A stretch of DNA of 64,000 bases from Chitinophagaceae bacterium PMP191F. Lineage in GTDB: Bacteria > Bacteroidota > Bacteroidia > Chitinophagales > Chitinophagaceae. The position numbers and the translations under genes are program-made. The stretch is taken from NCBI GenBank assembly GCA_001302245.1, contig LGYU01000015.1, positions 1 through 64,000 on the forward strand. Direction: 5' to 3'. This document shows, piece after piece, positions 8,839 to 63,912 of this stretch. The stretch's first letter is position 1. Every line of letters starts with the position of its first letter. Below the pieces are notes generated by a model. It ran no database searches. It had not been told where the DNA came from and saw only the letters and a list, made by a program, of their open reading frames with translations.

Positions 8839-9267
8839 TTAACCTTTTAGTTTATCGGCTATTTTCACCATGTTATCTACCATTGTTCTGCATTCTCTTT
8901 CACCCAGTATCTTTTCGTAGGTAGTATAAAATTCATCCCGGCATGCCAGCAAAGTTGGATGCAGACCTTTGCTTTTGGCAGTAGGATATACATTGGTGGT
9001 TTTACCTTCCATTACCCGCACTACCATTTTTTTATCTTCCAGTTTTTCAATCAAACGGGTAATGGTAGAGGGAGATAGGTGTAATTGTTCGCTCAATGCA
9101 CCGGGCTGAATACCGGGATTGTCAATCACCAGCATCAGCAGATAAGCGTGACTGGGCGAAAGATCAACCCGTTTCCAGCTTTCACTGGCCAGCTTTTCTA
9201 CTTTACGTGCCAGCGCACTGGTTACAAAGTACAGACATTGATGATATGTGCTGTCTGAAGTTTTCAT
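8839..9267 (-). CDS. MarR family transcriptional regulator
   Basis: 142 residues with the winged helix-turn-helix of MarR: LSEQLHLSPSTITRLIEKLEDKKMVVR, with the wing following at about residues 85-95. Cysteines occur at residues 11, 109 and 126; the N-terminal one is placed as in some redox-sensing MarR proteins, though this is only suggestive. It precedes the NmrA-like reductase in the same direction. Matching palindromes before both genes point to autoregulation and control of the reductase. The start lies only 8 bases after a -7 element, so the mRNA may be nearly leaderless. Confidence 0.9.
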   Translation of the reverse strand: MKTSDSTYHQCLYFVTSALARKVEKLASESWKRVDLSPSHAYLLMLVIDNPGIQPGALSEQLHLSPSTITRLIEKLEDKKMVVRVMEGKTTNVYPTAKSKGLHPTLLACRDEFYTTYEKILGERECRTMVDNMVKIADKLKG

Positions 9268-12646: not shown

Positions 12647-14170
12647 ATGGCAGCTACGGATAAATTTTTACAAACTATTCAGGAAGGATATTCTTTTAAA
12701 GGCGAAGCGGCTGTTCTGGGTATTGGTATGCTTGACGGGCAGGTAGTAAGCGGAGCTTCGGTAAAACTGCCACTCAAAACCATGAACCGTCATGGTCTCA
12801 TTGCAGGTGCAACCGGTACCGGTAAAACCAAAACATTGCAGGTCATTGCAGAAGCGCTGAGTGATGCCAGTGTGCCGGTGTTGCTGATGGACATAAAAGG
12901 AGACCTGAGTGGTATTGCTGCTGCCGGTACTGTGAACGATAAGATCACGGACCGCATGGGTAAAATAGGACAGGAGTGGAAACCCGCAGCTTTTCCGGTA
13001 GAACTGCTTACGCTGAGTAATGAGAAAGGTGTAAGGCTGCGCGCCACCGTAAGTGAATTTGGCCCCATCCTGCTATCTAAAATCCTTGACCTGAACGACA
13101 CACAGCAGGGACTGGTTGCCATGATCTTCAAGTATTGCGATGATCATAAAATGCCTTTGCTGGACCTGAAAGATTTTATTAAAGTATTGCAGTACATCAG
13201 CAATGAAGGCAAAGCAGAGATAGAAAAAGAGTATGGCAAAATAGCCACTACCAGTACTGGTACTATTTTACGAAAAGTAATAGAACTGCAACAGCAGGGT
13301 GCCGATATCTTTTTTGGTGAACCTTCTTTTGAAGTAGATGACCTGATGCGTATTGCAGATGATGGTCGTGGTATGGTGAGTATACTGCGTGTAACAGATA
13401 TGCAGAACAGACCCAAGCTGTTCTCGACTTTTATGTTGCAGATGCTGGCCGAATTGTATTCAGTATTACCAGAGGCCGGTGATCTTGATAAGCCCAAACT
13501 GGTGATGTTTATTGATGAGGCGCATCTTGTTTTCCAGGAAGCAACCGATGCTTTGTTGCAGCAGATTGAAACGGTGATCAAACTGATCCGTTCAAAAGGT
13601 GTAGGCATCTTCTTCTGTACACAAAATCCACAGGATATACCTGCCGCAGTATTGAGCCAACTGGGTTTAAAAGTGCAGCATGCATTGCGTGCATTTACTG
13701 CTGCTGACAGAAAGACCATTAAGCAGGCTGCAGACAATTATCCGGTAACGGAGTTTTATAAAACTGATGAACTGATAACGCAGATGGGTATCGGTGAAGC
13801 GCTCATAACCATGCTGAATGAAAAAGGTATTCCTACGCCGCTGGTACATACCATGCTGGTGTCACCACGTTCAAGAATGGATGTGTTGATCGATAGTGAA
13901 ATTGATGGCCTGGTAAGCCGTTCAAAACTGGTAAAGAAGTATATTGATTCAATAGACAATCAAAGTGCGTATGAAATACTGACTGCCAAGCTGGAAACAG
14001 CCGCACAGCAATCTGAAGAAGCGGCTAAGCCGGCCTCACGCAAACAAGAGAAGCCATGGTGGGAAACAATGCTGAACAGTTCAGCCGGCAAACAGCTGCA
14101 ACGTTCTGCCATCAGGGGTATATTCGATGTGTTGGGCCTGGGTGGTAAAAGCAGTAAAAAAAGCAGATAA
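12647..14170 (+). CDS. HerA-like/DUF853 ATPase (YjgR family)
   Basis: 507 residues. An FtsK/HerA-type ATPase: Walker A GATGTGKTKTLQ near residue 51, Walker B LVMFIDEAHLVF near residue 285, and an FCTQNPQDIP sensor block, matching the DUF853/YjgR family. The C-terminus has a charged, Lys/Ser-rich tail. It is cytoplasmic and may translocate DNA or remodel nucleoprotein, but the family has no firmly assigned role and no NurA-type nuclease is nearby. The ATG start is preceded 17 bases upstream by a near-consensus -7 element (TAACTTTC). Confidence 0.88.
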   Translation: MAATDKFLQTIQEGYSFKGEAAVLGIGMLDGQVVSGASVKLPLKTMNRHGLIAGATGTGKTKTLQVIAEALSDASVPVLLMDIKGDLSGIAAAGTVNDKITDRMGKIGQEWKPAAFPVELLTLSNEKGVRLRATVSEFGPILLSKILDLNDTQQGLVAMIFKYCDDHKMPLLDLKDFIKVLQYISNEGKAEIEKEYGKIATTSTGTILRKVIELQQQGADIFFGEPSFEVDDLMRIADDGRGMVSILRVTDMQNRPKLFSTFMLQMLAELYSVLPEAGDLDKPKLVMFIDEAHLVFQEATDALLQQIETVIKLIRSKGVGIFFCTQNPQDIPAAVLSQLGLKVQHALRAFTAADRKTIKQAADNYPVTEFYKTDELITQMGIGEALITMLNEKGIPTPLVHTMLVSPRSRMDVLIDSEIDGLVSRSKLVKKYIDSIDNQSAYEILTAKLETAAQQSEEAAKPASRKQEKPWWETMLNSSAGKQLQRSAIRGIFDVLGLGGKSSKKSR

Positions 14171-50270: not shown

Positions 50271-51080
50271 CTATATTTTATTCTGCAATACCAGTAAAGG
50301 AATATGCGTTTCGTACGCCATATCGGCAGTGTAGGTTTTGGAGAACAGGCGCTCAAAAAAACTGTGTTTGTGTGCCACCATTACCAGCAGCTCGCTGTTG
50401 TGCTGCTGCAGGTAGTCGTGAATGCTTTGTTTAATGGTAGTGCCTTCTACAGTAATATGCTCGTGTTGTATTTGCTGAAAAACCCCTTCGTATTTATTGC
50501 GGTTGATTACTGTTTTGTCTTTTTTGCGTTGCACGTATACAATTTGTGTATGGGCATTGAAGGCGGTAGCTATTTCCAGCAGGGGAGCAAATAATTGTGC
50601 GCTGGCGGGATAGCTGTAATCACTGGCGTAGGTGATATTTTTTACCGGCAGGTAAGCTGCGTCATTCGGAATGATCAGCACCGGTGTTTTTACTTTATAC
50701 ACAACATTGGTGGTGGTGCTGCCGATAATTTTATCCAATCCGCCGGCTCCTTTAATACCCATCACAATCAGGTCAGTGTTTTTTTCTGTGGTCAGTGCCC
50801 TGATCTCATCCGAAGGAATGCCAATGCGTACCAGCCACTCTACTTCAATACCGTACGTGGTGTGCAGAAAGTCCGCTTCCTGTTTAATAAGGCGCTCATT
50901 TTCCTGTTGCTGTTCATCAATGGTGATCATATTGTAGGGTACCTCACTTACAGGAGCAGGGATCATGTAGGAGTGGAACAATAACAAACGTGCTTTGAAT
51001 ACACGAGCCAGCTCTGCGGCATATACAGCTGCATTCCGGGAAATAGCAGAAAAATCAACCGGAACAAGAATGTTTTGCAT
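50271..51080 (-). CDS. Universal stress protein with two Usp domains
   Basis: 269 residues. The first domain (1-140) carries the ATP-binding pattern MGIKGAGGLDKIIGSTT and begins MQNILVPVDFS. The second (about 148-269) lacks the full nucleotide motif and ends in the usual VLVLQN-like strand (PLLVLQNK), so it is probably structural. Cytoplasmic; linked in general to stress or growth arrest. It stands alone; no neighbour suggests a specific signal. Confidence 0.9.
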   Translation of the reverse strand: MQNILVPVDFSAISRNAAVYAAELARVFKARLLLFHSYMIPAPVSEVPYNMITIDEQQQENERLIKQEADFLHTTYGIEVEWLVRIGIPSDEIRALTTEKNTDLIVMGIKGAGGLDKIIGSTTTNVVYKVKTPVLIIPNDAAYLPVKNITYASDYSYPASAQLFAPLLEIATAFNAHTQIVYVQRKKDKTVINRNKYEGVFQQIQHEHITVEGTTIKQSIHDYLQQHNSELLVMVAHKHSFFERLFSKTYTADMAYETHIPLLVLQNKI

Positions 51081-51507
51081 GACTATATGCTTTGGTACAT
51101 ATTAAAGTTAGTAAGTATTGAGTGATTATGGATGGTTGGTTGACTGTTGCAGGTTTCGGGGCCTGTTCGCGCAAAGTCGTATACGGTATCGCAAAGAAGG
51201 CAAAGGTTTTTCCTGCGTTCAGTACGTTACCCGGCCTATCATTCAGGACGTATAACCTGCAATCGTTTTTGTGTTCAGCACTAAGCGTTGGACGGATTGC
51301 TCTACCTATCACTTACAACGTAAAATCTACAACAACACTTGTCTTCAGCATTCATCCAGAAAAATATTTTGCTCTCCGATAAAAGTTAATATATTCGTAT
51401 AGTAGGATAGAATAGGACAGGCTAATAACGATTGCCCACCTGTCACTTTCAGATTACCTTGCACGAATGCACAGGAGTTTGTCTATTGTATTCTAAACGA
51501 ATTTGTT
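51081..51507. other. 427-bp region between Usp and gntR genes
   Basis: No gene. It contains the gntR promoter/operator area at 51390-51417; the rest shows nothing I recognise. Confidence 0.4.
51390..51417 (+). promoter_or_regulatory. gntR promoter element with GntR-type operator
   Basis: A near-consensus -7 element TATATTCG (51390-51397) runs into GTATAG-TAGGATAGAATAG-GA. The 13-mer TAGGATAGAATAG (51403-51415) recurs exactly just after the susC -7 element at 58656-58668. The site sits about 93 bases before the gntR start. Confidence 0.6.
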
Positions 51508-52524
51508 ATGTACGACGTGTATCAACAGATCCATGAGCTGGAAAATATCAGCGGTTTGTCAAAACATGAACAACTGGTTCAGGGCATTATCAATGCCATT
51601 AACGGAAAGTTCCTGGGCAAGGGCGATATGTTGCCTTCGGTAAACAACCTCATTAAAGAATTTGGCTTTGCCCGAGAAACAGTAGCCAAAGCATACAAAG
51701 AACTTACCAACCGGGGCATTGTAGAACCCAAGAACAGGGTAGGTTTTTTTGTAGCCAATGACGATACTGATCAAACCCTGAAACTGGCATTGGTGATCTT
51801 TGCTTTCGACAGCTTCCAGGAAGTATTTTATAAAACACTCCGCGATCGTTTAGGCAGCGGCGTGCACATTGATGTGTTCTTTCATCATAACAATATTGAT
51901 ATGTTTGAAAGCATCATTTCCAATGTACGTGGCAAATACGGCATGTATGTAGTGGCGCCCATTCCGCATAAAAAAACAACTTCTATTCTAGAAACACTTC
52001 CGCTGGATAAGTTTCTGATGATAGACAGATATCATGATATGCCGGATGATTGTTCGTATGTAACGCAGGAGTTTGAAAAATCATCTTACGATGCTTTTGC
52101 TGAACTGGCAGATACCATCCGCAGGTATAAAGGCATGATCTATTATCATCGCCCGGCTGCAGATACACCTATTGAAATACTGGATGCCTACAATAAGTTT
52201 ATTAAAAACTTTAAGATCAATAGTACTATCCGCACCGAATATGTGCCCGGTACTATTGAAAAAGGGTATGTATACTTTACCATCAACAACACAGAACTGT
52301 GGGCAATGCTGAAAGACTGCATGGCAAAAGGGTACAGGCTGGGAAAAGATGTGGGCATTCTTTCGCACAACGATGACCTGGTGAAGGAGATCATTTGTGA
52401 TGGCATTACTACTTATTCCACCGACTTCAGTAAGATGGCTGAAAAGTCGGCGGAGTTTGTACTGAACCGGAAAAAGATACAGGAAATTATACCTACCGTA
52501 TTGATAAGAAGGAAATCGCTGTGA
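51508..52524 (+). CDS. GntR family regulator with sugar-binding-like C-terminal domain
   Basis: 338 residues. The N-terminal winged HTH is GntR-type: GDMLPSVNNLIKEFGFARETVAKAYKELTNRGIV. The C-terminal domain resembles the periplasmic-binding/LacI fold (VFFHHNNIDMFESI, LPLDKFLMIDRYHD, GILSHNDDLVKEI), as in Bacteroidota regulators of sugar loci. It is followed 10 bases later by the symporter and two glycosidases. A matching site before its own gene and before susC suggests it controls the whole locus, released or activated by the imported sugar. Confidence 0.9.
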   Translation: MYDVYQQIHELENISGLSKHEQLVQGIINAINGKFLGKGDMLPSVNNLIKEFGFARETVAKAYKELTNRGIVEPKNRVGFFVANDDTDQTLKLALVIFAFDSFQEVFYKTLRDRLGSGVHIDVFFHHNNIDMFESIISNVRGKYGMYVVAPIPHKKTTSILETLPLDKFLMIDRYHDMPDDCSYVTQEFEKSSYDAFAELADTIRRYKGMIYYHRPAADTPIEILDAYNKFIKNFKINSTIRTEYVPGTIEKGYVYFTINNTELWAMLKDCMAKGYRLGKDVGILSHNDDLVKEIICDGITTYSTDFSKMAEKSAEFVLNRKKIQEIIPTVLIRRKSL

Positions 52525-52534
52525 TTGATAATTT

Positions 52535-54136
52535 ATGAACACCGGCGTTATTATAAGTTTCTTTCTTTTTACCCTGCTGTCGGCAGGCATTGCGGTGTAT
52601 AAAACAAGGAAACAGAAAAAGAACACGTCGGTTGATTTTTTTCTGGGAAGCCGTAGCCTGGGTTTCTGGATGATCGGCAGTTCGTTATTGCTGACGAATC
52701 TTAGTGCCAACCAGTTTATTGGCGAAAATGAATTTGTGTACACCACCAACATGTCTGTAATGGCATGGGGGATGAGTTCTGTGCTGGCTATGCTACTGGT
52801 AGCAGAATTTCTGATGCCGGTGTATCTGAAAATAGGTGCTATTACAACGGTAGATTTCCTGGAAAAACGGTTTGACAGCCAGACCAAAAAAATGGTGTCG
52901 GTGGTGTTCCTGCTAAGTTACCTGGTGAACCTGGTGCCTGCAGTATTGTATGGCAGTGCGGTAGCGATCAATGGCATTTTTCACATTGATGTGCATTTTG
53001 GACTTAGTTATTTTTCTGCCATCAGGTTGTTGGTGTTGTTGGTAGGCACTGTGGGTGGCATGTATGTGTTGCTGGGTGGTTTAAAGGCCATTACAGTTTC
53101 AGATGTGGTGCAGGGAGCAGGCATGCTGGCGGGAGGACTGTTACTATGCTGGTTTGCTTTCAGTAAGCTGGGCGATGGCGATGTATGGGCAGGCGTGTAT
53201 AAAACGGCCACAGAAAATAAAAGCCATCTGAATGCTATTGGCGGCCCGCATGATCCGCTGCCCTTCAGCACATTGTTTACCGGTATGCTGCTCATCAATA
53301 TCTACTACTGGGGTATGGAGCAATATATTGTGCAGCAGGCGCTGGCATCTAAAAGTCTTGCAGATAGTCAGAAAGGAATTTCGCTGGCCTGTGTGGGTAA
53401 GCTGATCTCTCCATTATTGCTGAATATACCGGGTTTGATAGCATTGCAATTATACCCGGGTATAAAAAATACAGCTACGGTGTTCCCGGCACTGGTAGGG
53501 GATGTTTTGCCTCCATTGCTGGCAGGATTTATTGCGGCGGTTATATTTGGTGCAGCACTGAGCACATTCAATGCAGGCATGAATAGCCTGGGCACATTGT
53601 TCGTTATGAATTTTTATATGCCCTGGTCAAAACGCAATATTGTTTCGGATGATATAGAACTCAGGGCATTGCGGACCGGTAAAAAATTCCAGTTCCTGGT
53701 AATTGTGCTGGCAATATGCTGCTCGCCTTATATCATGTTCTTTAAAGGAGGATTTTATGACTTCCTGCAACGCGCCACCAGTTTTTTCAGTGTGCCTGTT
53801 TTTACAGTAATGGCAGTAGGATTGATAACGAAGCGTGTGCCTGCTATTGCAGCTAAGATCGGTCTGTTCTTTTTTACAGGAGTGTATTTTCTTACGCAGT
53901 TTGTATTTGATACAGGAATGCATTACCTGCATGTGCTGGCGGTATTGTTTGTAATTACCATGGTGCTGATGATGGCGATTGGAAAATTGAAGCCCCTGGC
54001 TGCACCCTTTGTACTGCCGTCGGCAGGTGCAGTAGATATACAGCCATGGAAACAACGGCACTGGTATTTTGGTATATTGATCATACTGATGATCCTTGTA
54101 TTCGTATTGTTTTCACCGCTAGGGCTGGCCTCCTGA
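52535..54136 (+). CDS. Sodium/solute symporter (SSS, SLC5-like family)
   Basis: 533 residues with about 13-14 hydrophobic helices and the N-terminal SSS pattern (DFFLGSRSLGFWMIGSSLLLTNLSANQFIG, the second helix region). The core sequence fits SglT-type sodium/galactose symporters. It should import a mono- or disaccharide across the inner membrane with sodium. It is 10 bases after gntR and 85 before the alpha-galactosidase, so it is in the same operon. Sugar specificity is not proven; galactose is likely from the neighbours. Confidence 0.9.
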   Translation: MNTGVIISFFLFTLLSAGIAVYKTRKQKKNTSVDFFLGSRSLGFWMIGSSLLLTNLSANQFIGENEFVYTTNMSVMAWGMSSVLAMLLVAEFLMPVYLKIGAITTVDFLEKRFDSQTKKMVSVVFLLSYLVNLVPAVLYGSAVAINGIFHIDVHFGLSYFSAIRLLVLLVGTVGGMYVLLGGLKAITVSDVVQGAGMLAGGLLLCWFAFSKLGDGDVWAGVYKTATENKSHLNAIGGPHDPLPFSTLFTGMLLINIYYWGMEQYIVQQALASKSLADSQKGISLACVGKLISPLLLNIPGLIALQLYPGIKNTATVFPALVGDVLPPLLAGFIAAVIFGAALSTFNAGMNSLGTLFVMNFYMPWSKRNIVSDDIELRALRTGKKFQFLVIVLAICCSPYIMFFKGGFYDFLQRATSFFSVPVFTVMAVGLITKRVPAIAAKIGLFFFTGVYFLTQFVFDTGMHYLHVLAVLFVITMVLMMAIGKLKPLAAPFVLPSAGAVDIQPWKQRHWYFGILIILMILVFVLFSPLGLAS

Positions 54137-54221
54137 TGTATGGTGAATGATTATAAATTTTTACACGTTTTTTATATGGAAGGATAAGCCTGTATGGGCT
54201 GACCTTAGAAAAAATTATCAA

Positions 54222-56381
54222 ATGAAAAAGTATTTCATTTTCAGCACGCTATTGTTTGCACTGTTGATGGCAGGTAAAATATTGCAGGCACAAAGCCGTA
54301 TTCCCATCCATACCAAAAATTCTACGTTGTTGTTTACAACAGGTAAGGATGGTAAACTGTACCAGAGTTATTTTGGAAAAAGGATTGCTGCAGAAACATC
54401 TTTAAACCAGGTGAGCATGCAGAATATTGAAAGCTACCAGGTGGCAGGTGGTGAAAATCTATTTGAGCCCGCATTGCGGATGATCCATGCCGACGGCAAT
54501 CCGTCTTTACTGCTGAAAGTAAAGGACTTTAAAGAAAACCGGGTTGATAATAACAATACGATGACCAGTATTACATTGGAAGATCCCGTGTATCCTGTAA
54601 GTGTGGTACTGAATTTTTCTGCCTATTATAATGAAGACGTTATTAAAGCGTGGGTTGAGATCGTGCAACGTGAAAAAGGAAATGTTACCATGACGGGATT
54701 TGCATCTTCCATGCTGCACTTTGTTTCAGACAGTTACTGGTTGTCACAATTTCATGGCGACTGGGCCGAAGAAGTACATCTGCAGGAATCGCAATTGACC
54801 AGTGGTATCAAGATCATTGACAGCAAACTGGGTAGTCGTGCGCACATGTACCAGACACCAGCTTTTCTGCTGGCGCTGAATGCAAAGGCTACAGAAGATG
54901 AAGGGGAACTGATTGCTGGTACATTGGCATGGTCTGGTAATTTCCGTTTCCTGTTTGAACTGGATGAAAAAAATCAGTTGAGGATCGTTTCCGGCATCAA
55001 TCCATATGCATCAGAATATGTATTGGAGCCCAATAAGAAATTTATTACCCCTGAATTCATTTTTACATACTCTGATCAGGGTAAAGGAAAAGCCAGCAGA
55101 AGCCTGCACCAGTGGGCACGTAACTATGGCATTAAAGATGGCAATGGCCCGCGTATGACCCTGCTGAACAACTGGGAAGCTACACAGTTTGATTTTAACG
55201 AAGCAAAACTGGCCGGTTTATTTGGAGAAGCCAAGCAACTGGGCGTGGATATGTTCCTGCTGGATGATGGTTGGTTTGCGAATAAGTATCCACGTAATGA
55301 TGATCATGCAGGATTGGGTGACTGGCAGGAGAATAAGCTGAAACTGCCCCATGGCATTGGGTACCTGGTAAAAGAGGCACAGAAAACAGGAGTGAAGTTT
55401 GGCATCTGGATAGAACCGGAAATGGTGAATCCCAAAAGTGAGTTGTATGAAAAACATCCAGATTGGATCCTGAAACTACCCAACCGTGAAGAGCACTATT
55501 TCAGAAACCAACTGGTGCTGGATATCATCAATCCCGAAGTGCAGGATTTTGTATTTGGGGTGCTGGATAAAATAATGACCGATAATCCGGGGGTTGCTTT
55601 TATTAAGTGGGATTGCAATCGGATGATCACCAATGCCTATTCACCCTACCTGAAAAACAAACAGACGCACCTGTATATTGAGTATGTAAAAAGCCTGTAT
55701 GCCATATTGGACAGGGTACAGAAAAAATATCCTGCACTGCCTATGATGTTGTGCAGTGGCGGAGGCGGAAGAACTGACTATGGTGCATTAAAGTATTTTA
55801 CTGAATTCTGGCCCAGCGATAATACAGATCCTGTGGAGCGTGTATTTATTCAATGGGGATACTCTTACTTCTTCCCGGCAAAATCCATTGCCTGTCACAT
55901 TACATCCTGGGGAAAACAATCATTGAAATTCAGGACAGATGTAGCCATGATGGGACGCCTGGGATATGATCTGAATGTGGCACACATGACAGCCAATGAC
56001 CTTAGTTTCAGTCAACAGGCAGTGGCTAACTACAAGCGTTTAAATCCTGTTATCCTGCAGGGTGATATGTATCGTTTGATCAATCCTTACAACAACGACA
56101 GAGCTGTAGTGATGTATACAGATCAGCACAAAGACAATGCCGTGTTGTTTGCATACAACCTGCATCCGCGGTATGGTACCAACTGGCCCACTGTAAAACT
56201 GAAAGGACTTGATGTAGCGAAGAATTATGTAGTAACAGAGATCAACCTGTATCCCGGTACACAATCGCAACTGGCAGAACAGGGAAAGAGCTACACCGGT
56301 GAATACCTGATGAATGTAGGACTTGCATTAACCAATTCTACAGAACTGACCAGCGCGGTTATTGAAATCAAAGCAAAATGA
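54222..56381 (+). CDS. Alpha-galactosidase, GH36
   Basis: 719 residues from the ATG at 54222, which starts a signal peptide (MKKYFIFSTLLFALLMAGKILQAQ). Motifs of GH36: LLDDGWF, GIWIEPEMVNPKSELYE, nucleophile Asp464 in FIKWDCNR, and acid/base Asp533 in PSDNTDP. An N-terminal beta-supersandwich precedes the TIM barrel. It should release terminal alpha-galactose from raffinose-family or galactomannan oligosaccharides in the periplasm. The stop overlaps the next start by four bases (ATGA). Confidence 0.92.
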   Translation: MKKYFIFSTLLFALLMAGKILQAQSRIPIHTKNSTLLFTTGKDGKLYQSYFGKRIAAETSLNQVSMQNIESYQVAGGENLFEPALRMIHADGNPSLLLKVKDFKENRVDNNNTMTSITLEDPVYPVSVVLNFSAYYNEDVIKAWVEIVQREKGNVTMTGFASSMLHFVSDSYWLSQFHGDWAEEVHLQESQLTSGIKIIDSKLGSRAHMYQTPAFLLALNAKATEDEGELIAGTLAWSGNFRFLFELDEKNQLRIVSGINPYASEYVLEPNKKFITPEFIFTYSDQGKGKASRSLHQWARNYGIKDGNGPRMTLLNNWEATQFDFNEAKLAGLFGEAKQLGVDMFLLDDGWFANKYPRNDDHAGLGDWQENKLKLPHGIGYLVKEAQKTGVKFGIWIEPEMVNPKSELYEKHPDWILKLPNREEHYFRNQLVLDIINPEVQDFVFGVLDKIMTDNPGVAFIKWDCNRMITNAYSPYLKNKQTHLYIEYVKSLYAILDRVQKKYPALPMMLCSGGGGRTDYGALKYFTEFWPSDNTDPVERVFIQWGYSYFFPAKSIACHITSWGKQSLKFRTDVAMMGRLGYDLNVAHMTANDLSFSQQAVANYKRLNPVILQGDMYRLINPYNNDRAVVMYTDQHKDNAVLFAYNLHPRYGTNWPTVKLKGLDVAKNYVVTEINLYPGTQSQLAEQGKSYTGEYLMNVGLALTNSTELTSAVIEIKAK

Positions 56382-58396
56382 ACAGGCTACCGATAATAAA
56401 ATATTTCCGGCTGGCAATTGCTTGTACGCTATCATGTTTGTTGGTTGTAGCAACTGCTAAAGCACAACCGGGTCAGCTTTCTATCCCTTTTGGGAAGAAC
56501 AATAAAATAGTATTCGATCTTACTGCTGGTATTTATACTGTTCACTTTGGTGGAAAGGTATATTTCAATAATGCATATGTAACTGCCGGGGGTACGGAAA
56601 CTATTGACAGCAGAGCAATACATAGCTGGACATATAGTGTAACAACTTCTGGTATCGGGTTCGGTAAAGGAAAATTGTATACCCTTACCTGCGATAATAG
56701 GACCATGCAGTTGATGTTTCATGTATTTCCGGATAAAACATACTTCGTAGCAGAAATGCGGGTAAAAGGAGCATGCAATTACATGTCGCCATTAACTACT
56801 GACCAGGTACAGTTGCATGAAAATGGTGATAACCGGGCATTATTTGTTCCTTTTGACAATGACATGTGGGTGCGTTATGATGCAAAACCGGTTAGCAAGG
56901 CCGATTTTACCGGGAGCGAAGTGCTCGCTGTGTATAACAATGATCATTACAAAGGTCTTGTGATGGGTTCACTGGAGCATACTACCTGGAAGTCGGGTAT
57001 CCGGTTTAAAGGCAATGATAATAACCAAGATGGAAGTGTGGCACTATATGCCGGTTTTACCAGCACGGTCATTACCCATGATAGCTTGCCACATGGAACC
57101 GTGCAGCCCGTGGATGGCTATTGCAGATCACCCAGGATGCTGATTGGCCTGTTTTCTGACTGGCGTGATGGCATGGAACAATACGCAGCGATGAATGTGC
57201 AGGCAGAACCACGTGTAATAAACACCTGGAAAAAGGGTGTGCCTATGGGCTGGAACAGTTGGGGCGCTCTCCAAACAAAATTGAATGCCGATAATGCAGG
57301 TAAAATCATTGACTATTTCTATGATTCGTGCAAGGCTTTCCGCACCAGCAATAAAACATTGTATATCGACCTGGATTCTTACTGGGACAATATGACCTCC
57401 GGTGGTATTGATGGAGAAACTTCTCAATTAGCAGACTTTGTGAAACATTGTAAAGCAAAAGGATTCAAACCGGGTATATACTGGGCACCTTTTGTAGACT
57501 GGGGGAAATATGCACGTAAAGTGGAAGGCACTGATGTGGACTATACAGCAACATGGGTGCGGCAAAATGGTAAAGTAGTGGATGTGGATGGCGGCAGGGC
57601 AATGGATCCTACGCATCCGGCTACACGAAAAAGGCTGGTGCATTATTTTGAGCGTTTCAAACAACTGGGATTTGAAATGGTAAAAATTGACTTCCTGGTA
57701 CATGGCGCCTTTGAGGCAGATAGTTTTTTTGATACAAAAGTTACTACGGGTATGCAGGCATTCAGCAGTGGCATGCAGTTGCTGGATAGCGTGGTGAATG
57801 GAAAAATGTTGCTGTACGCTGCTATATCGCCCAATATTGCTACTGCACGCTATGTACATATGCGTCGTATTGCCTGTGATGCTTTCAGTGCCATTGACAA
57901 TACGGAGTATACACTGAACAGTACAGGCTATGGCTGGTGGCAGGGAAAAATCTATGATTTTATTGACGGAGACCATGTGGTGTTTGGTCATGAATCACCC
58001 GGTTGCAACAGGGCAAGACTGGCCAGCGCATTGGTAACCGGAACGCTTATTACCGGTGATGACTATGCTTCCTATGGTCCCTGGAAACAGGCAGCCGCCA
58101 CATTATTACAGAATCAATACCTGTTACAACTGGCTCATTCCGGAAAAGCATTTCGCCCGTTGTTGGCAGATACCGGCAACAAAGGCGTTAATGTACTGGT
58201 ACAGCAAAGCGGTGGATACCGTTACCTGGCGGTATTCAATTTTTCCAACCAGGATACGGTATTCAGTATACCGGCTAATAAAACCGGTATAGTATCCGGT
58301 ACTGCTGCGCTGGAGTTATTCAGTGGGAAGACCAGTGTATTGAATGGTTCGGTGAAAGTGCCTGCAACCGATGTGCTTATTTTCCGTACAAAATAA
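56378..58396 (+). CDS. Clan GH-D glycosidase, alpha-galactosidase-like
   Basis: 672 residues with a signal peptide (about 1-29). The TIM-barrel starts with VPMGWNSWGAL, then LYIDLDSYWDN, GIYWAPFVDWG and a nucleophile-like Asp438 in MVKIDFLVHG; a C-terminal beta-sandwich follows. These are clan GH-D features (GH27/GH36), but it is clearly different from the neighbouring GH36 enzyme. It may act on another alpha-galactoside or a related sugar such as N-acetyl- or anhydro-galactose. Translationally coupled to the GH36 gene by an ATGA overlap. Confidence 0.85.
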   Translation: MNRLPIIKYFRLAIACTLSCLLVVATAKAQPGQLSIPFGKNNKIVFDLTAGIYTVHFGGKVYFNNAYVTAGGTETIDSRAIHSWTYSVTTSGIGFGKGKLYTLTCDNRTMQLMFHVFPDKTYFVAEMRVKGACNYMSPLTTDQVQLHENGDNRALFVPFDNDMWVRYDAKPVSKADFTGSEVLAVYNNDHYKGLVMGSLEHTTWKSGIRFKGNDNNQDGSVALYAGFTSTVITHDSLPHGTVQPVDGYCRSPRMLIGLFSDWRDGMEQYAAMNVQAEPRVINTWKKGVPMGWNSWGALQTKLNADNAGKIIDYFYDSCKAFRTSNKTLYIDLDSYWDNMTSGGIDGETSQLADFVKHCKAKGFKPGIYWAPFVDWGKYARKVEGTDVDYTATWVRQNGKVVDVDGGRAMDPTHPATRKRLVHYFERFKQLGFEMVKIDFLVHGAFEADSFFDTKVTTGMQAFSSGMQLLDSVVNGKMLLYAAISPNIATARYVHMRRIACDAFSAIDNTEYTLNSTGYGWWQGKIYDFIDGDHVVFGHESPGCNRARLASALVTGTLITGDDYASYGPWKQAAATLLQNQYLLQLAHSGKAFRPLLADTGNKGVNVLVQQSGGYRYLAVFNFSNQDTVFSIPANKTGIVSGTAALELFSGKTSVLNGSVKVPATDVLIFRTK

Positions 58397-58720
58397 CAAA
58401 ACACAATCCCTGTAATCGACAACAATTAAGTCCGGATATAGCTATCCGGCTGAGGCGTATCCTATTCATTTTCAAACCGTATAGCAACAACTTCAGAGTG
58501 TTCTTACAGACTTTCTGAAGCGGCAAAAATCGCAATGTGAGCAGTATTGGAGAGTGCTACAAGATGAATAATAAGCTTAATAGACGGATAACTTTTGCAC
58601 TGCGATAATTTTTTTGAAGTCTCCAAACTCGTTATATTTGATATGTAGTATAGTATAGGATAGAATAGAATTTCAGGAAACTAATTCACTTATTCATTAT
58701 ACACCAAAGATTGCTCGCTT
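58397..58720. other. Intergenic region before susC
   Basis: 324 bases. It holds a hairpin CCGGATA-tagc-TATCCGG (58432-58449) just after the glycosidase gene, then the susC promoter and operator at 58613-58670. Nothing else recognised. Confidence 0.5.
58613..58670 (+). promoter_or_regulatory. susC promoter with GntR-type operator
   Basis: TTTG (58613-58616), 16 bases, then TATATTTG (58633-58640), a full -7 match. Immediately after lies GTAGTATAGTA-TAGGATAGAATAG; the 13-mer at 58656-58668 is identical to that at 51403-51415 before gntR. The site covers about +10 to +25, where a bound protein would block initiation. Confidence 0.68.
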
Positions 58721-61700
58721 ATGAAAAGAAAACCTGGTTGCTCTGGTCGGGGATTACGTGCTCCGGGCAACAGACTGCTCAGTATGCCATTGGTGCTACT
58801 GTGTCTTCTTTCCTTTTTTAACACCCATTCTCAAACTCCCGCTAATGTTACTGTAACCGGTATTGTTACCGATTCGCTGGGGAGGGTATTGGATGGGGCC
58901 AGTGTGATAGCCAACACCAAAAAAACAACAGCTACCAGTACAGACAGGAATGGTCGTTTTATCCTGGAAGTACCGGCAGGGGCTGAGATCATCATTTCTT
59001 ATGTAGGCTTTATTGAACAGCGGTTTGCCATTACTGCGGGTATCCGGGAACTGAAGGTGATACTGCTGCAAACTGCGCTGACGGGCGATGAAGTGGTGGT
59101 AACAGCCTATGGACGCAAACAACGTAAAGAAGCGGTGGTAGGCTCGGTTGCCAGTGTTAACCCTGAACAATTGCGCATACCTGCCAGTAACCTTACCAAT
59201 GCTATGGCAGGCCAGGTGGCAGGGGTAATATCTTTCCAGCGTGGCGGACAACCGGGGCTGGACAACTCGCAGTTCTTTATACGTGGTGTTACCACTTTCG
59301 GATACAGTGCCAGTCCACTGATACTGGTAGATAATATAGAACTTTCTGCCAATGACCTTGCACGCTTGCAGGTAGATGATATCGCTAGTTTTTCCATTTT
59401 AAAAGATGCGAGTGCTGCTGCGCTATATGGAGCCAGGGGCGCCAATGGTGTAATACTGGTTACAACTAAAGAAGGTAAAACAGGTACGGCAAGGATCGGC
59501 GTGCGGTATGAATCTTCTATTTCACGACCTACGCAAACAGTAAAGCTGGCAGATCCTGTAACCTTTATGAAACTGTATAATGAAGCGCTTACCACACGTA
59601 ATCCGCTGGCAAAGCCATTATACACTCCCAACCAGATCATCAGTACACAGGCTACTATGGACAAAGCACCGGGATATAACCCATATGTATATCCTGCTGT
59701 GGACTGGATGGGCACATTGTTTAAAAAACAAACGACTACCCATCGTGCCAATTTCAATGTGTCTGGTGGCAACAATATTACCAAGTATTACATCGCCGGT
59801 TCGTATGACAGGGATAATGGTATTTTACAAACCAACCCTGTTAACAACTTCAACTCTGGCATGAAGTATGAAAATTACCAGTTGCGTTCCAATATCAATG
59901 TAAAAGCAACTAAAACCACAGAGGTGATTGTGCGGTTGTGGGGAAATTTCAATGAATATACCGGCCCTATCACCGGTGATCAGTCAGGGCTTGCCAGCGA
60001 TCTGTACGACAGGGCACTGCATACCAGCCCGGTTGCTTTTCCTGCTTATTTTCCGGCAGATAGTGCCAATATACTGAGTAAACACATCCTGTTTGGCAAT
60101 TCACTGTCTACCGGTGGTTCGTTGCAGGCAAATCCCTATGCTGACCTGATGTATGGATACAAAAGCTTTTCAGAATCGCGTTTGTCTGCACAATTTGAAC
60201 TGAACCAGAACCTGAGTTTTATTACACAGGGCTTATCATTCCATGGTTTATTCAGTACCAACCGGTATGCATACTTTGATCTTACCCGTTCATACAAACC
60301 ATTTTACTATAGTGTGCAGAACTATGATAAGGTCAACAACGCCTATACGTTGAAATGGCTGAACAATCAGCCGGGTGCAGCACAGGAATATCTTAGCTAT
60401 TATCCCGGTTTCAAAAACATTAATACGTACCTGTATATGCTGGGTTCATTGGATTACAGTCGTTCTTTTGGTGATCACAGTGTCAACGCATCACTGGTAG
60501 GCACGCGTCAGCAGATCCTGAATGCAGAAGCCAATGACCCCAATACCGGCCAGCCTTCATTGCAATACTCGCTGCCTTACCGTAATCTTGGTGTATCAGG
60601 AAGAGCTACTTATTCTTATGGCAGCAAATATTTTCTTGAATTCAACTTTGGTTACAATGGTTCAGAACGTTTCTCTACACAAAACCGCTGGGGCTTTTTT
60701 CCAACTATAGGAGCCGGATGGGTTGTATCCAATGAAAAATTCTGGACAGGCAAAGTTGCAGATATCATTACCCGCCTGAAAGTGAGGGGAAGTTATGGTT
60801 TAGTGGGTAATGATAATATTGACAATACAAGATTCTATTATCTTTCCAACGTAACGCCCAACGATCCCTATGGCCCTTCGGCAACCTTTGGTAATACGAA
60901 TGGATTTACCCTGCGTGGCACTACTATACAGAACTATCCCAATCCCAATGTAACCTGGGAAACATCACGCAAAAGCAATATTGCACTCGAATTGACCATT
61001 CTGAAAAACCTGAACATTATTGCAGAGTACTATCATGAATACCGGTACCATATTCTGCAGGCGCGCGGATACATCCCTGTTACTGCAGGTCTGGAAGCCA
61101 CTATCAAATCGAATGTGGGAACTGCCTATGCAAAAGGCCTGGATCTGCATATTGATTACAAGCAAAATATTACAAAAGACCTGTGGGCTTCTGTGCTGGG
61201 TAATCTTACTGTTACTTCCAGCAGATATGGCCATTATGAAGAGCCTGAATATAAATATCCTTACAGGTTCTTATCAGGACAGCCTATTAACCAGCAGTTT
61301 GGATATATAGCAGAAAGACTGTTTGTGGATGATAAAGAAGCTGCCAATTCTCCCACGCAGTTGTTTGGAGCATCTCCTTTACCTAAAGGAGGCGATATTA
61401 AATACCGCGATGTGAATGGTGATGGAATTATAAACCAGGATGACCAGGTACCCATTGGTTTACCTATAACTCCTTCCGTCATCTATGGGTTTGGTTTTTC
61501 TGTAGGGTATAAAGGTTTTGACCTGAACGCATTTTTCCAGGGCCTGGGTCGTGAATCATTTTTTATCAATGCTACCTCGCAGGATGACAGGTATCATGGT
61601 TTATATGGAACGGCACCCTTTGTAAACAATGCGCAGATACTGGACGCTTACGCACAAAATCACTGGAGTGAAGAAAATCAGAACCTTTATGCATTATGGC

Positions 61701-61978
61701 CGCGCCTGGCAACTACTGATATTCTCAATAACCAGCAGAAGAGCAGCTGGTGGCTGCGCGACGGAAGTTTCCTGCGTTTAAAATCGATAGAAGCAGGCTA
61801 TACGCTTCCTAAACGATTGACCAAACGCCTGTTTATTGAAAACATGCGCATCTACTTCAGCGGGTTGAACCTGTTCACCTTCAGTCATTTTAAACTGTGG
61901 GATCCGGAGCAGGCTGGGCAAGGATTTGCATATCCGATACAGAAAGTAGTGAATGTGGGTGTGAACCTAAATTTCTAA
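58721..61978 (+). CDS. SusC/RagA family TonB-dependent outer membrane transporter
   Basis: 1085 residues. An N-terminal signal (hydrophobic PLVLLCLLSFF near residues 23-33) is followed by a CarboxypepD_reg-like domain (VTVTGIVTDSLGRVLDGASV, about 45-125), the plug with EVVVTAYG and the conserved GARGANGVILVTTKEGK, and the 22-strand barrel ending with KVVNVGVNLNF. With SusD it imports oligosaccharides through the outer membrane, powered by TonB. It is preceded by the shared GntR-type site and followed directly by susD. Confidence 0.94.
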   Translation: MKRKPGCSGRGLRAPGNRLLSMPLVLLCLLSFFNTHSQTPANVTVTGIVTDSLGRVLDGASVIANTKKTTATSTDRNGRFILEVPAGAEIIISYVGFIEQRFAITAGIRELKVILLQTALTGDEVVVTAYGRKQRKEAVVGSVASVNPEQLRIPASNLTNAMAGQVAGVISFQRGGQPGLDNSQFFIRGVTTFGYSASPLILVDNIELSANDLARLQVDDIASFSILKDASAAALYGARGANGVILVTTKEGKTGTARIGVRYESSISRPTQTVKLADPVTFMKLYNEALTTRNPLAKPLYTPNQIISTQATMDKAPGYNPYVYPAVDWMGTLFKKQTTTHRANFNVSGGNNITKYYIAGSYDRDNGILQTNPVNNFNSGMKYENYQLRSNINVKATKTTEVIVRLWGNFNEYTGPITGDQSGLASDLYDRALHTSPVAFPAYFPADSANILSKHILFGNSLSTGGSLQANPYADLMYGYKSFSESRLSAQFELNQNLSFITQGLSFHGLFSTNRYAYFDLTRSYKPFYYSVQNYDKVNNAYTLKWLNNQPGAAQEYLSYYPGFKNINTYLYMLGSLDYSRSFGDHSVNASLVGTRQQILNAEANDPNTGQPSLQYSLPYRNLGVSGRATYSYGSKYFLEFNFGYNGSERFSTQNRWGFFPTIGAGWVVSNEKFWTGKVADIITRLKVRGSYGLVGNDNIDNTRFYYLSNVTPNDPYGPSATFGNTNGFTLRGTTIQNYPNPNVTWETSRKSNIALELTILKNLNIIAEYYHEYRYHILQARGYIPVTAGLEATIKSNVGTAYAKGLDLHIDYKQNITKDLWASVLGNLTVTSSRYGHYEEPEYKYPYRFLSGQPINQQFGYIAERLFVDDKEAANSPTQLFGASPLPKGGDIKYRDVNGDGIINQDDQVPIGLPITPSVIYGFGFSVGYKGFDLNAFFQGLGRESFFINATSQDDRYHGLYGTAPFVNNAQILDAYAQNHWSEENQNLYALWPRLATTDILNNQQKSSWWLRDGSFLRLKSIEAGYTLPKRLTKRLFIENMRIYFSGLNLFTFSHFKLWDPEQAGQGFAYPIQKVVNVGVNLNF

Positions 61979-61995
61979 GTTTCAAAAACAGCTAT

Positions 61996-63912
61996 ATGAA
62001 AATCTTCATAAAAGCAATATTAACGATAGCATCAGTGGTTATATTAATGTCATCCTGTAAAAAATATCTTGATGTGGTGCCCGATGATGTAGCCACGCTG
62101 GAAAGTGCATTCAGCAATGCCAACGAAGCACAGGCATACCTGTTTGGCTGTTACTCTACCATGCAGTCGCTGTCTGATGTGCGGCGCAATGCTGGTTTCA
62201 CCACATCGGGTGAAGTGATCTTTCCTTATCCGTTGCAGGATCAGACAACGCTGGGTGGCCAGGGTGGTGACGGTGCATTCCAGATACTGCGTGGCACTCA
62301 AAATAGCGCCAATCCTATTCTGAATTACTGGGATGGCTACAACATGGGATTGAACATGTGGCAGGCCATCAGGAAATGCAATATCTTTTTGGCCAATATA
62401 GACAGACCTATTGACCTGGCTGCATTCCAGAAAACAAGATGGATTGCCGAAGCGAAATTTCTGAAAGCTTACTTTCACTACTGGCTGATACGCATGTATG
62501 GTCCTATTCCTATTGCAGATGTTGAATTGCCGGTAAGTGCTACTACAGAAGAAGTCCGTTTAAAACAACAAACTGTTGATTCCTGTTTCAATTATGTAGT
62601 AAAACTGCTGGATGAGTCTATTGCTGATTTGCCCAATGCTATTCAGAATGTGGCAGCAGAAGCAGGCAGAGTTACTGCTACTATTGCGTTGGCAGTAAAA
62701 GCAGAAGTGCTGGCAACACAGGCCAGCCCGCTGTTCAACGGCAATCCTGATTATGTGGGTATGAAAGGAAAAGACGGGCAAAGTTTTTTTGCTGCTACAG
62801 CCGATCCTGCAAAATGGAAAAAAGCTGCTGATGCCTGTAAAGCAGCTATTGATGCTGCTACTGCTATAGGCGGAGATCTGTACCAGTTAAGACTGAGCGG
62901 CAATATCATTCACATGTCCGACACCACGCGCAGAATGCTTACCATACAGGGTGCATTTACCGATAGCTGGAACCCTGAACAGGTCTGGACGTTGAATCCT
63001 TCTTTCGGATGGCAGTATATGGCATCGCCCAGGGTTACTGCCGATGCGGCTGCAAATGTATTTGCTGTATATTCCAATTTTTCTGTTCCTATCGGTCAGT
63101 CTGAGTTGTTTTACACCAACAACGGTGTACCCATCAATGAAGACAAAAACTGGGATTATACCAACCGTTACAAACTACAGCAGGGTGACGCAACACATCG
63201 CTATTACATAAAGCAGGGATACACCTGTGCCAAAGGGAATTTTGCACGCGAGCCCCGCTATTATGCTGATGTGGCATTTGATGGCAGCGTATGGTTTGGA
63301 TCGGGCAATACAGATGATAACAATCCCAATTTTATAAATGCAGTAAATGGTTTTGCATCGCCCCCTGACCAGTTGCGCTACAACGCTACCGGTTATTGGG
63401 CAAAGAAACTGGTACCTTATCAATCTACCGCTGGTCAGAACTCAATATGGCAGGCATACTCATGGCCCTTTATGCGTCTTACCAGTTTGTGGTTGCTGTA
63501 TGCAGAATGTTTAAATGAAGTAAACGGTCCTTCTGCAGAAGCATATACATGGATTGACAAAGTACGCTCAAGAGCAGGGTTACCGGGAGTGCTCACCTCA
63601 TGGTCGCAATATTCCAACAACCCTTCAAAACCCACCACTAAGGATGGACTGCGCCAGATCATACACCAGGAACGTCGTATAGAGCTGGCATTTGAAGGAC
63701 AGGCAGGCTGGGACCTGAGAAGATGGAAAGAATTACAGAATGTATTAAGTACCCCGGTACAGGGATGGAACGTATTCAACAGAACCACTGCCGGGTATTA
63801 CCAGTTGAGCAATGTATTTCAACCCATTTTCAGTCTGAAAAATTATCTCTATCCCATACAGGATTATGATCTGCTTACCAACCCTAACCTGGTGCAGACC
63901 CTGTACTGGTAA
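61996..63912 (+). CDS. RagB/SusD family nutrient-binding outer membrane lipoprotein
   Basis: 638 residues from the ATG at 61996, 17 bases after the susC stop. A lipoprotein signal ends MSSCKKYLDV, with the lipidated Cys at about residue 19. The SusD fold is shown by the helical TPR-like part (AEAKFLKAYFHYWLIRMYGPIPI) and the C-terminal RAGLPG and IHQERRIELAFEGQ-W-DLRRW blocks. It caps SusC and binds the oligosaccharide at the cell surface. The open frame upstream overlaps susC and is not used. Confidence 0.94.
   Translation: MKIFIKAILTIASVVILMSSCKKYLDVVPDDVATLESAFSNANEAQAYLFGCYSTMQSLSDVRRNAGFTTSGEVIFPYPLQDQTTLGGQGGDGAFQILRGTQNSANPILNYWDGYNMGLNMWQAIRKCNIFLANIDRPIDLAAFQKTRWIAEAKFLKAYFHYWLIRMYGPIPIADVELPVSATTEEVRLKQQTVDSCFNYVVKLLDESIADLPNAIQNVAAEAGRVTATIALAVKAEVLATQASPLFNGNPDYVGMKGKDGQSFFAATADPAKWKKAADACKAAIDAATAIGGDLYQLRLSGNIIHMSDTTRRMLTIQGAFTDSWNPEQVWTLNPSFGWQYMASPRVTADAAANVFAVYSNFSVPIGQSELFYTNNGVPINEDKNWDYTNRYKLQQGDATHRYYIKQGYTCAKGNFAREPRYYADVAFDGSVWFGSGNTDDNNPNFINAVNGFASPPDQLRYNATGYWAKKLVPYQSTAGQNSIWQAYSWPFMRLTSLWLLYAECLNEVNGPSAEAYTWIDKVRSRAGLPGVLTSWSQYSNNPSKPTTKDGLRQIIHQERRIELAFEGQAGWDLRRWKELQNVLSTPVQGWNVFNRTTAGYYQLSNVFQPIFSLKNYLYPIQDYDLLTNPNLVQTLYW

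Follow-up and report, generated by a model that had tools for sequence, protein, structure and literature searches.

Which regulator controls the SusC/SusD cluster of Chitinophagaceae bacterium PMP191F, and through which DNA sites, is the question raised by positions 1 to 64,000 of contig LGYU01000015.1, the 64,000-nucleotide stretch called the window here. A 13-mer, TAGGATAGAATAG, occurs exactly at 51403-51415, before a gntR-type regulator gene, and again at 58656-58668, before susC, each time just past a Bacteroidota -7 box (TANNTTNG), namely TATATTCG and TATATTTG (Table 1). An earlier note on this DNA placed both copies correctly, each just downstream of a -7 element, and took the 13-mer for a probable regulon operator, by which the GntR-type protein would regulate its own gene and the outer-membrane transporter. 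Most descriptions of how Bacteroidota control their SusC/SusD clusters concern hybrid two-component systems (HTCS), SusR and sigma/anti-sigma systems. On comparative grounds, the two sites are very probably operators of the adjacent AraR-type regulator, a repressor that would sit on half-turn arrays of pentamers over the transcription start, be released by a sugar and control the gntR and susC operons jointly. The sites are indeed operator-like, and the same promoters carry them in relatives, but the unit is the pentamer array and not the 13-mer.

A bare repeated 13-mer is unremarkable here, since 109 different 13-mers are present at least twice on the plus strand of the window. In the genome (6,452,579 bases in 66 contigs) the exact matches to the 13-mer are those two only, and one mismatch adds two further places (C1:6320-6332 and C5:376946-376958, loci L003 and L004); the reversed 13-mer gives seven matches in the genome with at most one mismatch. 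With up to two mismatches the window contains seven matches, three of which overlap within the susC array, against a shuffle mean of 1.13, and seven was reached in none of 100 shuffles. The 13-mer forms part of a longer direct repeat in tandem, with 5-bp units of the consensus N-A-T/C-A-G. A motif-free scan for period 5 over the whole window returns a single match, the susC array, which is also the one exact match of the genome to a four-unit pattern; one mismatch adds six more, two within the window arrays and four elsewhere, and the reversed pattern has no match in the genome. The sites are direct repeats of 5-bp period and not the palindromic NyGTNxACNy described as the canonical GntR operator (PMC4494728). 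They agree with the NanR type in that short direct repeats adjoin one another at the promoter to be regulated, the unit being 5 bp rather than 6. A palindromic reading of the arrays was rejected, there being no inverted arrangement inside them. The exact 13-mer was also rejected as the operator unit, being present in only eight of 80 orthologous loci.

These loci are the best 80 of 266 matches from a scan of GTDB genomes, with regulators of 51-78% identity, the closest among the listed matches in named genomes being that of Filimonas zeae (78%); two of the loci seem to have been seen before and some genomes appear twice. A strict array was defined as at least three N-A-Y-A-G units, and 69 of the 80 loci have one. 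Counting the sense strand only, 55 of the 72 loci in which susC could be assigned have a strict array no more than 500 bp ahead of it, and 31 of the 80 have one no more than 400 bp ahead of gntR; with strict or relaxed units taken together 77 of 81 loci (the window counted) have arrays. A scan of orthologous loci, proposed in the earlier note, loses the exact 13-mer in most cases, an absence that the note itself had named as a refutation, and keeps the pentamer array; of the two targets claimed there, susC has the array in most loci and autoregulation appears to be lineage-dependent. The 109 repeated 13-mers could suggest a chance repeat of a low-complexity, A+T-rich sequence, but 98 arrays were observed at defined promoters in relatives, whereas five simulations of the whole set of loci with a first-order Markov model gave 0, 1, 1, 0 and 1; chance is thereby refuted and keeps practically no probability. 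Controls with reversed sequence gave 12 strict matches against 101 and 8 relaxed matches against 96, part of them probably because GATAG repeats read identically backwards. With the letters permuted, 0-1 of 80 still matched in the gntR set, apart from one permutation that reached 7 on the minus strand; in the susC set as many as 12 of 72 did, probably because the arrays were caught in a shifted frame.

In the first five loci (the window, L035, L036, L037 and L038) every gntR is preceded by an array; a second array stands before susC in the window and in L035 (susC assigned there through its match with L048) and before a 324-aa open reading frame (ORF) in L037. Arrays were recognised in loci of Chitinophagaceae, Sphingobacteriaceae (Pedobacter, Mucilaginibacter), Saprospiraceae and one genus of Flavobacteriaceae (Sinomicrobium). 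Relaxed units give 109 arrays: 62 have SusC within 500 bp downstream, 32 stand ahead of GntR and 6 ahead of another ORF, and 9 are elsewhere. None of the 109 lies well inside a same-strand ORF of at least 150 aa. Two of the nine (L050 and L070) actually stand before gntR and seven are inverted copies in Mucilaginibacter. In these Mucilaginibacter loci (L073-L079) the second, inverted array lies about 300 bp upstream of the susC array (in L073 at 12842 on the minus strand, the other at 13140 on the plus strand); no -7 box is visible before the inverted arrays, which could possibly serve as DNA-looping partners.

A TTG or TTTG at -33 is a promoter element in Bacteroidota, and a candidate stands ahead of each -7 box in the window. 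Both arrays begin 3 bp past their -7 box. In F. psychrophilum the box, with the consensus TAnnTTTG, lies at -12 to -5 (PMC9723704), and this placement predicts starts near 51402 and 58645, so that both arrays would begin at about +1. Among the relatives 46 of 100 arrays have TANNTTNG in the 45 bp ahead of them, to be compared with 3.1% of random windows. A repeat at +1 in both window promoters, on the same box placement (PMC9723704), would make up the initial 20-25 nt of the transcript and could act there as RNA, controlling stability or translation; this is highly improbable, since the distance from array to box varies among relatives, Mucilaginibacter has its inverted copies some 300 bp upstream of the susC array, and the letters of the units go with the DNA-recognition helix. 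The units of the strict arrays are TATAG (125), AATAG (98), GATAG (72), TACAG (37), AACAG (20), GACAG (15) and CATAG (8). The position ahead of the first strict unit favours N-G-T-A-G, and the last unit favours C (51 of 100 last units against 16 of 172 middle ones). Strict arrays have three to seven units and some are near-perfect, such as the five TATAG units of L081, as might be expected of a slippage-prone pentanucleotide tract whose unit number alters promoter strength by phase variation. Such an origin is very unlikely, as the units within most arrays differ from one another (TATAG, GATAG, AATAG, TACAG) and follow an order at the ends, features that slippage would erase, and several perfect repeats elsewhere sit away from such clusters.

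The link to the regulator was examined across the order, in 396 genomes, with an orthologue defined by more than 390 bits (our own cut) and the strict four-unit pattern. The pattern is present in 26 genomes, 14 of the 38 with the orthologue against 12 of the 358 without (Fisher p 2e-9), and in 11 of those 14 a match lies within 10 kb of gntR, the exceptions being G349, G405 and G036. Stray patterns occur in 15 genomes, and one region was inspected in each of eight; in these eight regions no relative of the seven query cluster proteins was listed and, by eye, no four-unit array is preceded by a -7 box. A tract of nine perfect TATAG units at 9077 of locus L189 is a true simple repeat; it lies between genes that do not resemble those of the cluster, and its genome (G405), of the same family, has an orthologue elsewhere. 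When the 996 ORFs of the 80 loci were clustered, the families present in more than half were GntR (78), SusC (71), SusD (68) and the sodium:solute symporter family SSS (60), GntR being the only regulator family in most loci; other regulators (extracytoplasmic function (ECF)-sigma-like, FecR-like, response-regulator-like and sensor-kinase-like) are found in 3 to 5 loci each, judged by eye from the 25 largest clusters.

The arrays could nevertheless serve as operators for a different regulator of SusC clusters, of HTCS, AraC or ECF type, with gntR merely travelling along. They are commoner before susC than before gntR, the HTCS and SusR of Bacteroides have direct-repeat motifs, though with long spacers (PMC3878776), and the ECF-sigma-like, FecR-like and response-regulator-like genes are at hand in a few loci. 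This alternative is unlikely: no second regulator family is common to most loci, arrays stand before gntR itself, the pattern tracks the orthologue across genomes, a start at about +1 is the position of a repressor and not of an activator, and the letters change along with the GntR helix, although such events are few.

The regulator itself is placed, with the help of a structure model, in the AraR subfamily because it combines a GntR winged helix with a LacI-type effector domain whose fold matches include 3tb6. The winged helix is recognised as PF00392 (E 7e-12, 45.2 bits, cut-off 27), while PF13377 (E 2e-4) reaches 21.9 bits, under the cut-off of 26.5; in an alignment of 55 regulators (A3), PF00392 is found in all 55 and PF13377 in 34 at E 0.001. 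The model, built from 55 sequences (pLDDT 92.1, pTM 0.82), has a short N-terminal helix (2-11), the winged helix and an alpha/beta domain of LacI type. Chains of the LacI family lead its fold comparison (Z 21-23), the AraR effector domain 3tb6 (Z 22.2) being tied with others, in a VIA-align list that barely tests residues 1-64; the DNA-binding domain matches 4egy (E 1.5e-10). Residues 56-57 of the recognition helix align with Arg63 and His64 of AraR, which contact bases (PMC4494728, Table 1).

The helix falls into five classes among 81 regulators (60 ARE, 14 AKE, 3 AGE, 3 ARK and 1 ARA), and the letters of the units differ with them. TGTAG makes up 9 of 14 units with AGE, where the second letter is G in 64% of units, against 10% with ARE, 11% with AKE and 25% with ARK; CATAG makes up 6 of 12 units with ARK, a first letter C being found in 1% of ARE units; and GATAG makes up 35 of 61 units with AKE against 44 of 381 with ARE. 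Five further loci (L269-L273), the best five in another family (f25) of the same taxonomic class, were examined afterwards, and all five have 5-bp units before susC. The two ARE loci among them have TGTAG-TATAG-TATAG there and each another array before a GH27-like gene (GH, glycoside hydrolase family), and the three ARK loci have CATAG arrays: AGTAG-CATAG-ACTAT-CATAG in L272, TGTAG-CATAG-TGTAT-CATAG in L273 and the weaker TGTAG-CACAA-AGTAG-CATAG in L271. CATAG thus returns at 10-bp intervals in L272 and L273, where a looser unit separates the copies, and also in a Saprospiraceae array, GGTAG-CATAG-AATAG-CATAG, a spacing that would fit a dimer that reads the DNA from a single face.

Taking together the position, conservation and promoter context of the arrays, their gene linkage, the lack of another regulator in most loci and the domain make-up of the protein, we infer binding, repression, oligomer geometry and inducer as follows. 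The operator would be a run of head-to-tail 5-bp units N-A-T/C-A-G, usually with N-G-T-A-G first and often with N-A-C-A-G last, extending from about +1 to +20/+25. Because 5 bp is half a helical turn, alternate units would lie on the same side of the DNA, and the protein, probably a dimer, could place its two DNA-binding domains on units 10 bp apart, further dimers being added on longer arrays. The bound protein would cover the start site and block RNA polymerase, repression being suggested because the arrays lie over +1. A sugar inducer is suggested by the LacI-type domain; a sugar of the cluster's substrate, most likely galactose or an alpha-galactoside, may bind this domain and release the regulator, and release would switch on the gntR-symporter-GH36-GH27-like operon and susC-susD together. 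The choice of sugar is suggested by GH36, the GH27-like protein and a galT that is present in one cluster, that of Chitinophaga (L058).

Paralogues beyond the orthologues offer a further lead. The paralogue P0008 (30% identity, helix SKE) has ACCAG-TCCAG-TCCAG-ACCAG before a divergent susC (L040, 13390). Its relatives in L224, L225 and L226 have similar NCCAG arrays, preceded by TTTG in L224 and L225 and not in L226, and more distant ones in L227, L231, L234 and L235 have triplets like AACAG-TGCAG-AACAG. Over nine paralogue susC upstream regions, one of which (L226 susC1, score 10) is not adjacent to a regulator, the best four-unit score is 10-12 at period 5 against 7-10 at periods 4, 6, 7 and 8; their sum is 98 against a maximum of 83 in 1000 shuffles, with single p values from <0.001 to 0.058. 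A score of 11 out of 12 is not decisive alone, period 8 having reached 11 once (L273, upstream of gntR). Of 16 loci of P0008 relatives a strict scan (four NNYAG units) matches L227 only and a period-5 scan L224 only, the arrays in L225, L226, L231, L234 and L235 depending on looser scoring; in nine (L228-L230, L232, L233 and L236-L239) no SusC is listed and no array was found. Among 20 upstream stretches of paralogous gntR genes, a period-5 repeat of at least 12/15 is found in two, L032 (NCCAG, divergent strand) and L017 (without a YAG pattern). A search of viral contigs for the P0008 paralogue gave no relative. It is conceivable, though rather doubtful, that pentamer arrays (NN-T/C-A-G, 5-bp period) are an operator grammar common to several diverged AraR-type branches in Bacteroidota, with letters set by two helix residues (ARE: TATAG/AATAG; AKE: GATAG; AGE: TGTAG; ARK: CATAG; SKE paralogue: NCCAG); in this view the protein would polymerise along the array, over the start site, and the number of units would tune repression. 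Universal use of pentamers by AraR-type paralogues is unsupported. The paralogue arrays are a lead and not a rule, because they were found after looking, in loci picked for P0008, with nine of 16 loci blank and no strict array in the wider set described next.

Several observations weigh against the arrays being operators of this regulator in the manner proposed. The strict four-unit pattern is missing from 24 of the 38 genomes with the orthologue; no array was found in L080 and L096 and only degenerate ones in L091 and L105; many arrays consist of three units or deviate in their letters; and 54 of 100 arrays have no match to the -7 box. Strict arrays are found in 0 of 29 other AraR-type paralogue loci across the phylum (within 1.5 kb on either side), where period 5 is not outstanding either, with 1 match against 1 to 6 at other periods. 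This negative is weak, because in five of the 29 (L240-L244, the same as L269-L273) arrays turned up further out or with looser scoring. The association between helix and letters amounts to about four changes on the tree, with on average 1.7 independent pairs agreeing, none opposing and 2.3 without difference (median p 0.5). With so few changes it was rejected as statistical proof, and it is suggestive only, because every class occupies one side of a single branch. L072 (ARE), in which all units after the first are GATAG, is a counter-example. Most Pedobacter clusters lack the galactosidases within the DNA examined, and the inducer may therefore differ between clades.

Table 1. Features of the cluster in the window, with predicted promoter and operator elements.
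Feature	Position	Strand	Basis or remark
Possible -33 element (TTTG), gntR promoter	51368..51371	+	sequence
-7 box TATATTCG, gntR promoter	51390..51397	+	consensus TAnnTTTG
Operator array 1 (predicted), AGTAG-GATAG-AATAG-GACAG, four units	51401..51420	+	about +1 start; 87 bp 5' of gntR ATG; includes 13-mer 51403-51415
gntR-type regulator, 338 aa: GntR winged helix (21-82), LacI-type effector domain (~90-338)	51508..52524	+	Pfam, structure model
Sodium:solute symporter, SSS family	52535..54136	+	Pfam PF00474, NCBIfam NF007790
GH36-type alpha-galactosidase (Melibiase domain)	54147..56381	+	Pfam PF02065, E 1.8e-106
Probable GH27/GH36-like glycosidase, 672 aa	56378..58396	+	weak PDB match GH27 4nx0, E 0.0088
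Possible -33 element (TTTG), susC promoter	58613..58616	+	sequence
-7 box TATATTTG, susC promoter	58633..58640	+	sequence
Operator array 2 (predicted), TGTAG-TATAG-TATAG-GATAG-AATAG, five units	58644..58668	+	about +1 start; 52 bp 5' of susC ATG; includes 13-mer 58656-58668
susC-type TonB-linked outer-membrane transporter	58721..61978	+	NCBIfam TIGR04056, E 3.5e-276
susD-type lipoprotein, longest ORF, real start probably further in	61897..63912	+	Pfam PF07980

With its susC-susD pair, GH36 enzyme and GH27-like protein, the cluster of the window is a SusC/SusD polysaccharide utilisation locus. The 672-aa protein has no Pfam family at 0.001 and no NCBIfam assignment at the thresholds used. A gene for a universal stress protein (50271-51080, minus strand) is divergent from gntR, and the intergenic region with array 1 is common to both. 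In other loci lipoprotein-like genes follow susD, at 18232-20730 in L103 (DUF4959/DUF5126/DUF5000) and at 16433-18813 in L111 (DUF4998/DUF5000/DUF5013), and relatives of the L103 product occur in 40 of the 80 loci.

A putative sugar-sensing repressor can now be tied to an operator that is recognised from its sequence. The half-turn repeat, unlike the palindromes read by most GntR proteins, raises the question of how a twofold dimer reads head-to-tail 5-bp units. The clade-linked changes of letters offer natural material for deciphering a recognition code, and in these bacteria the arrays could be put to use as tunable promoters.

The second domain of AraR is of LacI/GalR type, which fits the match to 3tb6, and AraR operators are palindromic, whereas the window operator has no palindrome and consists of head-to-tail pentamers only. 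Like the window regulator, AraR of B. subtilis joins a GntR winged helix to a second domain of other origin (PMC4494728). The earlier note regarded such a layout as less described in Bacteroidota than SusR or ECF/anti-sigma control. It is not without precedent: B. thetaiotaomicron has the GntR-family regulators of sugar genes ManR (BT2103) and FucR (BT1272), and an operon that includes a SusC/SusD-like system was predicted to be under ManR control (PMC3878776). A literature search, with RegPrecise and supplements outside it, gave no pentamer-array operator for this group. FarR (TGTATTAWTT) and NagQ (TGGTATT) are GntR proteins with direct-repeat motifs, but their units are longer and they are regulators of HutC type (PMC4494728). 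The closest likeness is with NanR of E. coli, a GntR-family repressor with a sugar inducer, of which three dimers bind cooperatively to (GGTATA)3, short direct repeats that adjoin one another downstream of the polymerase site (PMC8012715); repression and a sugar inducer are predicted here as well. The units of NanR are 6 bp long (PMC8012715) and those here 5 bp; NanR belongs to the FadR subfamily (PMC4494728), whereas the window regulator has a LacI-type domain and not the all-helical one of FadR type; and the 32-residue N-terminal extension of NanR has, apart from the short predicted helix 2-11, no clear counterpart here. Direct-repeat GntR operators are already known from NanR, and the pentamer array, as predicted from these comparisons, is a real and conserved operator and a new form of that kind.

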